Part shown: positions 59,415-64,000 of the stretch, piece by piece | Numbering within the stretch: the first letter of the stretch is position 1 | How the letters are laid out: every line of letters begins with the position of its first letter | DNA from: Bombilactobacillus apium | GTDB taxonomy: Bacteria; Bacillota; Bacilli; Lactobacillales; Lactobacillaceae | Length of the DNA stretch: 64,000 nt | Reading direction: 5' to 3' | Assembly: GCF_013385145.1 (NCBI RefSeq) | Contig: NZ_JABZEC010000001.1 | Span: forward strand, 248,001 to 312,000 | Notes under the pieces: model-generated | Database searches by the model: none | What the model was told of the DNA's origin: nothing | What the model saw: only the letters and a program-made list of their open reading frames with translations | Position numbers and translations under genes: made by a program

Positions 59415-60356
59415 TTAAGACTCAGTCATCATCGGTAAAACTGTGGGTATGACTTTACTCAACAGATACGTTTCATTAGACAAATCATTTATAAAAGATT
59501 TTCCAGGCAAGTCTTTCAAATACTCCTGAAGTACAAACTCTACATTATCTGGCCATCCGTGGATATAGTCCATTAATTGTTGATCTCCATTATACATTCT
59601 TTTTATGAATGCTATATCTGAAATATCAGACGTTTTTAATTCCATCGGTTCGATTTTTCTAACATGTCGCTGGACTCCAGCATAACTTTCATTTCCTCCA
59701 GTTTGGACATATGATCTTACGTATGGCAACCCAAATATGTCATTACTAGAAATATAGATAATTTCATCTGCTAAAATGTGCCCTTGAGAAAAGTAGCTGG
59801 TTTTACCAGCATTTGATATGCCTAGTAAAAGCTTTTTCTTACCATTAAATTCTCCAATTACTCCATGAATTGGGTAAACTCCTCTTTTTAGCATTGTTTC
59901 AGTTATTCTAGCTTCAATAATTTTTTGGAGTAATAAAAAGTCCTTGAGTAACTTTTTTAGATCAACATATTGAATCAACACAACGCTGCTCATATATTCA
60001 ACATTACAAAATGAGGTTCTAGTAAACAGCGTTCCATTTGTTGACTGCCCCTTAATGAACTCACCTTCATCTAAACTAACGTAGTCAACCTCATCATAAC
60101 TTTCCACTTTTGAAAACTTGAATATTTCAACTGGCATTAGCACATTATGATTCATAATAGAGGCTGTTAAAAAATAGTATTTATTCAATTCGTTTAAAAT
60201 ACTTTTCTCATCTGAGGAAAACAACATCTTTATATCTGAAATAGCTGCCACCAAGTTAAACCGTTCCAAGATATCACTTATTGGAACATTTGCATCTACC
60301 AGATTATCGCAGATAGACAATTTTCCCTTTTGAAGCACCGCTTTGTACTTATTCAT
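59415..60356 (-). CDS. HPr-kinase-like P-loop protein (second copy), peptide-locus gene
   Basis: 313 residues. The C-terminal half has the HprK-like phosphate loop LLLGISNAGKTSYF (GISNAGKT, about residues 179-186) followed by ILADEIIYISSNDIFGLPYV, the acidic position of HprK-like kinases. The N-terminal 150 residues are unassigned. HPr itself is not the likely target; related stand-alone kinases modify peptides in lasso-peptide clusters. ATG at 60356 after GAGGTG; overlaps the nucleotidyltransferase gene by eight bases. Last gene of the operon. Confidence 0.7.
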   Translation of the reverse strand: MNKYKAVLQKGKLSICDNLVDANVPISDILERFNLVAAISDIKMLFSSDEKSILNELNKYYFLTASIMNHNVLMPVEIFKFSKVESYDEVDYVSLDEGEFIKGQSTNGTLFTRTSFCNVEYMSSVVLIQYVDLKKLLKDFLLLQKIIEARITETMLKRGVYPIHGVIGEFNGKKKLLLGISNAGKTSYFSQGHILADEIIYISSNDIFGLPYVRSYVQTGGNESYAGVQRHVRKIEPMELKTSDISDIAFIKRMYNGDQQLMDYIHGWPDNVEFVLQEYLKDLPGKSFINDLSNETYLLSKVIPTVLPMMTES

Positions 60357-61041
60357 TAGTATCACCTCTGACTTTTTTTCTCGCGAGCCACACTGCTAAA
60401 CGTTTTAAGCGTGTATTAATCTCATTTTCACCGATATTAATTGAAGAAAAACGCAAACTTATATATTCTTGAAATTCATCATCCGTTAGCAGATCCTTTA
60501 ACAATAATGGTAGCCACTTTTGATTTAAGGTTGTAATTCGATTTTCCACCAAAACCATGGTTCCCAATGAATCAACTGCATTACCAACCACCATAGCCCT
60601 GACATACTTGTCCGCGACCTTTGTATCCGTAAGGTCATTCAAAAACTGATAATAAAACTTTTTTTCTAAGGTATTAAAATCAAGTTTATTTTTTGCTGTA
60701 GCTAAAATGCGCTTTAATGTGTCATCTCTATCCTGCAGAACTTTACCGGAAATTACCCGACCACTCATTAAATTTAAATCATGCTTAGCATCTAATACTT
60801 GTTGGACGAATGTATTAACGAATTTTTCAAATTCATGTACGTTAATGATTTGTAAATGAATTTTCTGATGTTGAAATATATCCACAACTAGCTCTTTAGC
60901 ATGATAACCATCAACTACAACAAATATATCTAAATCACTTAAATCATTGGACACTCCCATAACTGTTGATCCATGCTGAATCATTCCAATAATATCAAGT
61001 TTCTTCAATTTTTTATTCTGTTCTATATACTCCGCTATCAA
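60349..61041 (-). CDS. Minimal nucleotidyltransferase-like protein
   Basis: 230 residues. The N-terminus has the polymerase-beta superfamily pattern GS(x)nDxD: HGSTVMGVSNDLSDLDIFVVV (G24-S25, D36, D38), with a third acidic position not obvious in HLQIINV. The rest is helical (about 90-225). It could nucleotidylate or bind a nucleotide, target unknown. The start is TTG (61041) behind a run of six G. It is translationally coupled to the downstream kinase-like gene (ATGAATAA overlap). Confidence 0.7.
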   Translation of the reverse strand: MIAEYIEQNKKLKKLDIIGMIQHGSTVMGVSNDLSDLDIFVVVDGYHAKELVVDIFQHQKIHLQIINVHEFEKFVNTFVQQVLDAKHDLNLMSGRVISGKVLQDRDDTLKRILATAKNKLDFNTLEKKFYYQFLNDLTDTKVADKYVRAMVVGNAVDSLGTMVLVENRITTLNQKWLPLLLKDLLTDDEFQEYISLRFSSINIGENEINTRLKRLAVWLARKKVRGDTNE

Positions 61042-61053
61042 TATAATCCCCCC

Positions 61054-61377
61054 CTATACCCAGACCAGAAATATTATGACAAGAAAAACTAGGACTCGAA
61101 CAATGTGATGCTTTAAATGGAAATTATTAATTGCAATTCCATGCATAATTGCGGCCGCAGCAATTATACATGTTGCAACAGTGACTGTGATTTTAATTAG
61201 CAAATTAGTACCTACAATGAAGACCAGCAATACTAAAACCATACTTAATATATTGAGACTCCCTGAGATTTGCAATAACCGCGAACCCGTACGAAACTCT
61301 TTAAAATTGATAAGTGTCGTAATACTCATTAATACCGTGATTAACAAAAGCGTATATTCTGCAACTATATTAAGCAT
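61054..61377 (-). CDS. Small four-helix membrane protein
   Basis: 107 residues with four hydrophobic segments (about 3-22, 33-55, 60-80 and 88-106) and few charged residues. AGGGAG lies five bases from the ATG. Not recognised. In a peptide locus it could be an immunity or export accessory protein, but nothing in the sequence proves that. It lies between the M50-like and nucleotidyltransferase genes. Confidence 0.65.
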   Translation of the reverse strand: MLNIVAEYTLLLITVLMSITTLINFKEFRTGSRLLQISGSLNILSMVLVLLVFIVGTNLLIKITVTVATCIIAAAAIMHGIAINNFHLKHHIVRVLVFLVIIFLVWV

Positions 61378-61389
61378 ATGATCGCTCCC

Positions 61390-61557
61390 TTAAGGTATAA
61401 TTCGAATTCCTTTAAATGCCGCAAAAACAACCGCTAACGCGGACAAAATAAATAACACGCCCCACACTGTAGATACCAATTTTTGCTTAACCGATTCTTT
61501 CCGTTGATGATTTCTTAAAAATCTTCGAAAAAAAACGTTTCCTAACACCGTAAACAC
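61390..61557 (-). CDS. Possible small one-helix membrane peptide, overlapping the M50-like gene
   Basis: 55 codons in a different frame from the M50-like gene, from GTG 61557 (or 61548) to TAA 61390. It begins VFTVLGNVFF, has a basic stretch (RRFLRNHQRKE), then the helix VWGVLFILSALAVVFAAF and ends KGIRIIP. It fills the gap between two membrane genes and has a good charge pattern. No strong ribosome site is seen; translational coupling is possible. Confidence 0.4.
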   Translation of the reverse strand: MFTVLGNVFFRRFLRNHQRKESVKQKLVSTVWGVLFILSALAVVFAAFKGIRIIP

Positions 61558-62413
61558 CAGTTATTTCTTGAAAAAGACTGTATCCATCACTTCTAAAAAG
61601 AAATGGATATATGGAAATTCCGACCATAATCAGGGCTGCGTACGCGTATTTTTTTAGAAAAACACCCATCATATCATTGCCCATTTGAAATTCTAATGCT
61701 GCTAAACTAAAAACGATTCCGACAAATCCTAACATAGAAATAATTACTCTTGAAAATACGTAGATACGATCACTTTTATCTTTCTCATATAGATATACCT
61801 TATTTGTTGTAAATGATAAAAACATAAACCAGGTTATTCTAATTGCAGCTTCGCGAACTCGACTCCCTACAGATAGCGTATACAACGTTTCAAATATCTC
61901 ATGAAGAATCGCTGTCAAAACAACTGAGAAATAGATAACCAGCAAATCATTACGATTTAATTCTTCAAATATCAGTAGTTGCCTATTTAAATAGACAGAC
62001 GTAAGTCCCATGACAATAAATGTCACACTCAAACCTGTTAGAATTGATATATGTTTGGGTCGAACCACTATATTCTCCAAATTAATAGGAATTCGGATTC
62101 GAACAATTCTATAAATCATCGACCAAAACCTTCCAAAAGTAAATCCAGAACCTGCTCGTACTGGAACAATTACATGTCTATCTAAAAAAAAGGCGATTAA
62201 GTCAAGATCAGCTTTGGAATATTTCTCATCTAATTCTGTTTCTTGATTGAAGCTTAGCAATACTTTGGCATAATATTTTTTTACCTTAAAACTCGTTTTC
62301 CTCGTTATAACCATGTATTGGGTTGTATCGTCGATTTGTTCAATCACTGTACCCGGAGCCAAAATATACTTAGGATTCCATGGTTGCTTCGCTGATCTCA
62401 ATACCTGATTCAT
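61487..62413 (-). CDS. PqqD-like/M50-like membrane protein with degenerate HEIFE motif
   Basis: 308 residues. Residues about 18-85 look like a PqqD-type winged-helix domain (LAPGTVIEQIDDTTQYMVITRK). Several membrane helices follow, with HEIFE at 171-175 inside a helix and a late DGY motif (RSDGYSLFQEITG, 275-287). These match the HExxH and DG signatures of peptide-locus M50 metalloproteases (YydH-like), except that the second histidine is Glu. Catalysis is therefore uncertain. ATG at 62413; overlaps the M16 gene by 44 bases. Confidence 0.65.
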   Translation of the reverse strand: MNQVLRSAKQPWNPKYILAPGTVIEQIDDTTQYMVITRKTSFKVKKYYAKVLLSFNQETELDEKYSKADLDLIAFFLDRHVIVPVRAGSGFTFGRFWSMIYRIVRIRIPINLENIVVRPKHISILTGLSVTFIVMGLTSVYLNRQLLIFEELNRNDLLVIYFSVVLTAILHEIFETLYTLSVGSRVREAAIRITWFMFLSFTTNKVYLYEKDKSDRIYVFSRVIISMLGFVGIVFSLAALEFQMGNDMMGVFLKKYAYAALIMVGISIYPFLFRSDGYSLFQEITGVYGVRKRFFSKIFKKSSTERIG

Positions 62414-63389
62414 TAAAATCACTCTCTTTTTTGCCGTGCCCTACATTCTGAAGGCTTTCGTAAAATAACGTTTTTACTCTTCCAATCGGGTTATCTTTCA
62501 TTAAAATCTGTTTCTTTTGAACAACATTGGCCATTTCAAAGTTCTTACTAGCGAAATCCTTGAACGTATTCAAATATTGCAATACTAGTTCTCTAGTCCG
62601 TTTGAATTCCTTTTTGGCAATCGATACACAGAAGTATATATCCATACCGTCCTTGTTCTTTGTTTGAACAGTTTGTGAACGATAGATTAGGCCCTTACTA
62701 CGCAAGACTCCTGTCAATGTAGTCAAAAATTCCTGTAGTAAGATGCTAATATTTTCACTTCCTAATACGTGTATCTTCACTGTGTAACAAGTCTCTTCAG
62801 TGGGAACTGTTTTTGAGTAGAATGACTGAATACCTTTTGATTGAATTACTTTGGCATTATTAAGACTATTAACACGAATAATGGTATTTTTGGCATCCGT
62901 ATCTGATGAAATTAAATTGCTAAATTTTTTAAGCTCCTCAACCTTAGAATAAATATCTGCTAATTTAATACGCTCTAAAGACTCAATACTTCCTAAAATA
63001 GGAATTTCGTCCGGATTAGCGGATAATTTTGCAATTAGTAATTCAAAATTATCCAAAAAATAATGTTTTATTTCTCTTATAACTAATTTCTTTTCACTCA
63101 ACATTTTTTCTTCAGAAACGTCAAAATTGCAAAAAATATTTTCCATAAATGTTTTGGTCAAATCATCATCCTCGTTTAAGCTCTGAACATAAAACAAAGT
63201 AAAATCAAATGATGTCGCACCATTAAATGCAATACCTGCTTTATTCATAGAATCCATCATTTTTTTATTAGAACTTGTTTCAAATATCAGATGTTCTGTT
63301 AAATGTGCTAATCCTGATTTGCCAGCCGGATCAGAAATCGATCCAAATGGTGCACCTGCACCATATGCTATCGTTTGAAACCCACTCAT
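62370..63389 (-). CDS. M16-family (insulinase-like) zinc peptidase
   Basis: 339 residues. The inverted zinc motif HxxEH is intact as HLTEH (H29, E32, H33), in the context KSGLAHLTEHLIFE. The third ligand is probably E106 in EKKLVIREIKHY, 73 residues later, as the family expects. The C-terminal half is a second, non-catalytic M16-like domain. Single M16 peptidases act as maturation proteases in peptide clusters such as subtilosin (AlbE/AlbF). GGAGGTGAG precedes the ATG, which overlaps the upstream stop (ATGA). Confidence 0.85.
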   Translation of the reverse strand: MSGFQTIAYGAGAPFGSISDPAGKSGLAHLTEHLIFETSSNKKMMDSMNKAGIAFNGATSFDFTLFYVQSLNEDDDLTKTFMENIFCNFDVSEEKMLSEKKLVIREIKHYFLDNFELLIAKLSANPDEIPILGSIESLERIKLADIYSKVEELKKFSNLISSDTDAKNTIIRVNSLNNAKVIQSKGIQSFYSKTVPTEETCYTVKIHVLGSENISILLQEFLTTLTGVLRSKGLIYRSQTVQTKNKDGMDIYFCVSIAKKEFKRTRELVLQYLNTFKDFASKNFEMANVVQKKQILMKDNPIGRVKTLFYESLQNVGHGKKESDFNESGIEISEATMES

Positions 63390-64000
63390 AGTCTCACCTC
63401 CACTAACTTATGAAAATCGTCTGAAGCTTTATAACCCACACTATCATTTAAAATCTCTTTGAAAATTGACATGCCCAATTTATATTTGAAACACTTACCC
63501 TTTACAAATTGTGACTTGAGATAAACCGGGTTAAGGGTTGACGTTACCTGTTCCCTAGATAATAAGCAAAAGCACTTAACCTGTGAAATTGAAAGAGTTG
63601 AAAATTTTGGTGTTTGTAAATTCAACAGAACTTTTGCCTCACTATTGATTACACTTTTGGATTTTATCCAACTTTTCTTTAAAAATTCAGGATGAAATTT
63701 TTTTAGATCTCGCATATATATACCTGGGCACCTGCTCAATGCTTGAATCGTACCGTCTTCACTAATAGCAACAAATTCGTCCGTTAGTAACTCCCATCCA
63801 TTTGCTACCAGGTTCAGGGCACTTGACGTTTTTCCACTACCTTTCGGCCCTATAAACAGAACTGCCCTATTTGTTTGTGGATTTCTTACTAAAGAAGCAT
63901 GTATGCCCCAAACTGCATTTTCTAAAATCTTTTGTCTTACAAGTTCCGTGACTCCTCCCCTGAGCAGTCCATACATAACATCTACTTGATCATTCAAGGT
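63386..64000 (-). CDS. HPr-kinase-like P-loop protein (first copy), runs off the window edge
   Basis: At least 203 residues; the frame is open to the right edge, and TTG at 63997 is the outermost start candidate inside. It has the loop VLFIGPKGSGKTSSALNLV (GPKGSGKT) and GWELLTDEFVAISEDGTIQALSRCPGIYMRD, the acidic motif after the P-loop in HprK-like kinases. Its fold family is shared with the gene at 59415. It overlaps the M16 gene by four bases. The N-terminus may be outside. Confidence 0.75.
   Translation of the reverse strand, partial: TLNDQVDVMYGLLRGGVTELVRQKILENAVWGIHASLVRNPQTNRAVLFIGPKGSGKTSSALNLVANGWELLTDEFVAISEDGTIQALSRCPGIYMRDLKKFHPEFLKKSWIKSKSVINSEAKVLLNLQTPKFSTLSISQVKCFCLLSREQVTSTLNPVYLKSQFVKGKCFKYKLGMSIFKEILNDSVGYKASDDFHKLVEVRL

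Follow-up and report, generated by a model that had tools for sequence, protein, structure and literature searches.

A rare operon that may encode a phosphate-tailored ribosomal peptide, with two HprK-like proteins, an M16 peptidase and an M50-like membrane protein

Our analysis suggests that a compact minus-strand operon at the right end of the window directs the synthesis of a small ribosomal peptide that carries a phosphate-type modification, a reading to which we give a probability of about 0.58. From its upstream end, the operon consists of a 35-codon ORF, a hairpin, HprK-like protein A, an M16 peptidase, an M50-like protein with a displaced helix, a small membrane protein, a nucleotidyltransferase (NTase) and HprK-like protein B. 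A RiPP locus, as the original prediction proposed, is the best reading of these genes. It gains support because a precursor candidate is present and because a kinase and an NTP-transferase form a published RiPP tailoring pair outside the lasso peptides (PMC13381572), although no radical SAM enzyme, cyclase or exporter is encoded in the operon.

Organization and genomic setting

The window comprises the 64,000 bases from 248001 to 312000 of contig C1 (369,913 bases), in a genome of 1.71 Mb. The sequence to the right of position 64000 was read as locus L002 (C1:305001-325000), where the window position equals the L002 position plus 57000. The operon starts at 59415 and continues past the window edge to about 64440 (Table 1). 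Its gene content, strand and packing are as previously described, with genes that overlap or nearly abut.

Table 1. Features of the operon, in window coordinates.
Feature	Position	Strand	Evidence
Candidate precursor ORF, outside the window	64330-64437	-	35 codons, directly upstream of kinase A
Hairpin, outside the window	~64260-64326		between precursor ORF and kinase A; z -6.3
HprK-like kinase A, 283 aa	63386..64000 in the window, on to ATG at 64237 outside	-	HprK_rel_A, PF07475, hhalign
M16 metallopeptidase, 339 aa, AlbF-like size	62370..63389	-	PF00675, HLTEH...E106
M50-like membrane protein, 311 aa to frameshift	61487..62422	-	hhalign to daptide-type M50; HEIFE, DGY
Displaced C-terminal helix of M50-like gene (55-aa ORF)	61390..61557	-	in frame in relative G852
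Small hydrophobic membrane protein, 107 aa, conserved FHxxHHxVR	61054..61377	-	relative at same place in G852
Minimal nucleotidyltransferase, ~230 aa, GS..SDLD	60349..61041	-	PF01909; 45% identical relative in G852
HprK-like protein B, 316 aa, probable ATG at 60356	59415..60365	-	PIHG, GISNAGKTS, ADE; 29% identical relative in G852

The 35-codon ORF is preceded by an integrase-core (IS) remnant and a Tn3-family transposase, and downstream of the operon a short fragment is followed by a resolvase-like gene. A radical SAM enzyme or an exporter had been expected beyond 64000. This was not upheld: no radical SAM gene was found in the operon or beside it, and no gene for an ABC exporter in the operon or just right of 64000, where the transposases lie instead. 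The right side does not consist of unrelated housekeeping genes either, and the gene order of the operon is kept in a second genome (G852, below). The operon contains no separate RRE gene, no receptor or regulator gene and, among its ORFs, no SipW-like signal peptidase.

To the right (L025:2035-6200), the region is flanked by a plasmid backbone of lactobacillus type with RepA, ParA and Fic, which matches a Ligilactobacillus salivarius plasmid at 86%. The operon lies in a plasmid-derived stretch of the chromosome, and the region looks like an integrated plasmid. The backbone itself (L025:2035-6098), with up to 86% identity to lactobacillus plasmids, sits inside a 370-kb contig, either as an integrated plasmid or through a contig join.

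The candidate precursor

A precursor had been predicted beyond 64000, and a good candidate, MMTQNKSDQTIDLAEIEEFDGGETGFLAKKQFLLH, is encoded just right of this position, on the same strand as kinase A. A strong ribosome site, GAGGTGA, ends 3 bases before its first ATG. The peptide has an acidic amphipathic stretch, IDLAEIEEFD, followed by GG and then by a basic and hydrophobic tail. Acidic amphipathic stretches are common in RiPP leaders. Just past the stop codon there is a hairpin of -38.7 kcal/mol, compared with a shuffle mean of -20.5 (z -6.3), and none of 200 shuffles was as stable. Hairpins are frequently found behind a precursor gene when the precursor is needed in large and the enzymes in small amounts.

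We regard MMTQNKSDQTIDLAEIEEFDGGETGFLAKKQFLLH as the candidate precursor of the locus. Its core has few modifiable residues, Thr24 being the only hydroxyl residue after the GG. Neither a YxxP nor a YxxPxVLxHQ leader motif is present in the 35-aa ORF. No relatives of MMTQNKSDQTIDLAEIEEFDGGETGFLAKKQFLLH were found elsewhere in its own genome, in G852 or in the plasmids searched, and this is the main weakness of the precursor reading.

HprK-like proteins, M16 peptidase and nucleotidyltransferase

Three of the predicted families were confirmed upon profile searches. Kinase A matched the NCBIfam model HprK_rel_A (E 2e-6, but far below the model's cut-off) and PF07475 (E 4e-4). Against 30 true (housekeeping) HPr kinases, hhalign gave 90.7% over the P-loop core, and the P-loop and the DD/DE motif are in register with theirs. 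The housekeeping HPr kinase of this genome is encoded by a different gene, on contig C12. The M16 protein matched PF00675 (E 1e-12) and carries HLTEH at residues 29-33 (H29, H33) with a Glu at 106. Its nearest solved structures are M16 processing proteases, and its matches on plasmids and within the order are general M16 proteins. The minimal nucleotidyltransferase matched PF01909 above the cut-off (E 4e-6) and has the motif GS..DLD.

The second predicted HprK-like protein, protein B, was recovered in part. It had no family hit. Its PIHG and P-loop motifs stand in HPr kinase register, but hhalign gave a low probability (30%, E 6e-4). Its Foldseek hits were headed by HPr kinases, none of them significant, with a very poor AlphaFold model (mean pLDDT 38) as the query. 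A two-sequence profile of protein B reached a protein with a PEPCK/HprK-type P-loop, PVHG...GDSGAGKS...LADE. Protein B may be HprK-like, and its placement is weak. A PEPCK/HprK-type P-loop core was noted in a 600-aa protein without a named full-length family at L023:910-2712 (genome G1460).

M50-like protein and small membrane protein

The M50-like protein first came to notice through weak similarity to a daptide-cluster M50 protein, which itself matches the daptide M50 model at 1.6e-110. Residues 21-309 aligned with the daptide-type M50 set (hhalign 93.3%, E 2.6e-7), with HEIFE opposite HExxH and DGY opposite DGY. HExxH as such is not present. The alignment indicates an M50 relative in which the second metal-binding His is replaced by Glu; the match to NCBIfam YydH/LiaK was weak. 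The protein had been described as PqqD-like/M50-like. The M50 homology and the DGY motif stood, whereas the N-terminus had no HMM or PDB match and, taken alone, gave a weak alignment (E 0.08). The N-terminal domain is possibly RRE-like. The AlphaFold model (mean pLDDT 40) was too poor to interpret.

The 55-aa one-helix ORF, previously listed as a possible gene, is off by one base from the M50-like frame at an 8-T run (61528-61535). In the G852 counterpart the frame stays open through a last helix that ends in LGIQIIP; the corresponding helix of our operon, with KGIRIIP, is in another frame (45% identity, E 1e-6). By this alignment the ORF is the C-terminal end of the M50-like gene, displaced possibly by a true frameshift, slippage, phase variation or an assembly error. 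The small membrane protein (107 aa) had no family match and is a possible immunity protein.

Conservation

Whole-genome searches covered samples of the order, the class, the family, the phylum and two genera. One relative was found, in genome G852 (L016), which belongs to another genus of the same family. It retains, with order and orientation unchanged, the C-terminal half of the M50-like gene (helix included), the small membrane protein, an NTase that is 45% identical (E 7e-51) and an HprK-B that is 29% identical (E 4e-29). Since this order is shared with another genus, the neighbourhood is inherited and more than chance, and on these comparisons we take the module to be real and rare.

The copy in G852 is decayed. 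It is cut off by an IS transposase, its NTase has one internal stop, and the precursor, kinase A and M16 have been lost, so that these three rest on one genome.

Scans with short exact peptide patterns, which may miss diverged copies, found no relative in 84,980 species genomes or in viral contigs. Searches of plasmids gave nothing related to the DNA of the operon, nor to its M50-like, NTase, HprK-B or precursor proteins, and HprK-A matched only Streptomyces P-loop proteins in unrelated clusters. A weak HprK match in genome G759 was rejected, as it was the P-loop of a LevR-type regulator with no related genes.

Comparison with known systems

We found no paper on this gene combination among open-licence papers and, in line with the earlier statement, met the combination in no described system. 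Among published systems, the Linear Polyphosphorylated Peptides (LPP), lppAKBSDN, of Popov et al. 2026 (PMC13381572) come closest. There, LppK puts several phosphates on core Ser3, and the action of the NTP-transferase LppN is unresolved. The leader peptidase is a SipW-like relative of signal peptidases, and the system has a discrete RRE, an MsbA-like exporter and a YxxPxVLxHQ leader but no cyclase (PMC13381572). Our operon is similar in having an HprK-like kinase and an NTP-transferase together, a leader peptidase, a short precursor and no cyclase. It differs in having two kinase-like proteins and, where LPP has a signal peptidase, an M16 and an M50-like protein. It also lacks a discrete RRE, an exporter gene and YxxP.

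The paeninodin/pseudomycoidin lasso peptides (PMC8498205) also have an HprK-like kinase and an NTase that act on the peptide. However, the domain of the lasso B2 leader protease (PF13471) was found neither in the genome studied (G000) nor in G852, and there is no cyclase gene nearby and no lasso leader motif.

Epipeptides (YydF/EpeX, with the M50 protease YydH/EpeP) share with our operon an M50-type membrane protein and the lack of a classical exporter step, but no radical SAM epimerase is present here, HEIFE replaces HExxH and the family score is weak. The absence of a radical SAM gene also sets the operon apart from sactipeptide clusters. The daptide M50 protease (family NF041824) is related to our M50-like protein along its length, and daptide precursor leaders have an acidic LxxxEE stretch as well; none of the daptide modification genes is present, and the peptide is different. 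The AlbE/AlbF pair of subtilosin A (PMC12731061) is comparable in its short M16 protein, in HxxEH with a Glu about 73 residues on and in its place in a peptide cluster, AlbF having 366 aa, HFLEH and a Glu 72 residues on (PMC12731061). Here there is only one M16 protein and no radical SAM AlbA. M16 proteases (paenithopeptins, subtilosin) and M50 proteases (epipeptides, pearlins) are thus known from other RiPP pathways, and EpeP is thought to cleave and export (PMC10885120, PMC12731061). The best reading of the locus is a phosphate-tailored RiPP type that is not a member of the LPP, lasso or epipeptide groups, as defining features of each of these were looked for and found to be missing.

Proposed pathway

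In the pathway we propose, the 35-aa precursor would have a leader of about MMTQNKSDQTIDLAEIEEFDGG and a core of about ETGFLAKKQFLLH. Because a strong hairpin follows its ORF, the precursor would be produced in excess over the enzymes. Kinase A, kinase B or both would phosphorylate the precursor, with Thr24 as the first candidate site. LppK did not take Thr in place of Ser3 (PMC13381572), so phosphorylation of Thr24 would need another specificity. The NTase would then add to that phosphate or to a different group, a step also put forward for LPPs and for lasso peptides of the pseudomycoidin type. The leader would be taken off by the AlbF-like M16 peptidase, and the M50-like protein may hold, cleave or release the peptide at the membrane, similar to the role thought for EpeP in epipeptides. 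Such release could account for the missing exporter. The small membrane protein would probably confer immunity.

More tentatively, the locus may represent a separate RiPP class, in which two HprK-like enzymes and a minimal NTase build a nucleotide- or sugar-phosphate on a peptide of 13-14 residues, an AlbF-like M16 peptidase removes the leader and a non-canonical (HExxE) M50-like protein releases the product.

Several points speak against the phosphate-tailored RiPP: only two loci are known, a frameshift lies near the end of the M50-like gene, whose product also lacks the second His of HExxH, there is no exporter, no RRE domain was confirmed, and HprK-B is weakly placed. Phosphate-modified RiPPs are known among the paeninodin-type lasso peptides and, since 2026, among the LPPs. 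Our operon would combine M16 and M50-like proteins in one peptide pathway. As the locus is compact, has a named 35-residue candidate substrate and has no glycan genes around it, the addition made by the NTase and the reason for two kinase-like proteins are directly testable.

Alternative explanations

The same features of the M50-like gene raise the question of decay. The operon could be a relic, a plasmid-borne peptide cluster that once worked and is now non-functional, although we consider this unlikely. The frameshift and HEIFE would fit decay, as would the flanking IS and Tn3 pieces, the plasmid RepA/ParA backbone and the broken state of the sole relative in G852. However, the reading frames of the precursor, of kinases A and B, of M16 and of the NTase are all open, and their motifs are intact. 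The frameshift removes no more than the final helix and, as it falls within an 8-T run, might stem from slippage or an assembly error.

It is improbable that the operon serves a short pheromone, maturing it and sensing or exporting it, with kinase-like proteins that regulate and do not modify the peptide. No receptor or regulator gene accompanies it, and the kinase and NTase are a known RiPP tailoring pair (PMC13381572), even though the short precursor, the membrane protease and the small membrane protein would suit pheromone processing and the core has few modifiable residues.

A function apart from peptides, as a defence or toxin-antitoxin operon of an MntA-like NTase and P-loop proteins, is highly improbable. 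The NTase has a weak similarity to the MntA antitoxin and the region is mobile, but PADLOC gave nothing convincing, there is no HepT partner, and the M16 and M50-like genes and the small upstream ORF do not fit.

There is very little chance that the operon is a remnant of a paeninodin-type lasso cluster that retained its kinase and NTase, which do co-occur in such clusters (PMC8498205). A lasso origin is largely refuted: the B2 domain is absent from the genome, no cyclase gene lies nearby, the candidate precursor has no YxxP leader, and M16 and M50-like proteins do not belong to clusters of this type.

Other peptide clusters

A second cluster resembling a peptide-maturation locus was seen on the same contig outside the window (L002:13070-19698 and L025:676-1036, about window positions 70070-77036). 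It encodes a QhpE-like subtilase (E 1e-29), a TIGR04066 peptide-maturation protein (E 4e-13), an ABC ATPase and permease, two acyl carrier proteins, a split AMP-ligase and a 38-aa ORF, MKIMKSKLMMLKDVFFNLVLRDKQQVAVAGPVVVSKHT, which may be its precursor. No plasmid relative of this cluster was found by DNA. Within the same class, a 6.4 Mb genome carries a daptide cluster (L014:1234-3394, G452:C10) with at least five precursor-like ORFs, three of which are identical (MSIMQKNLSLQFEEMEAVTAPDWKDIAIGIGIGVGIGVALT).
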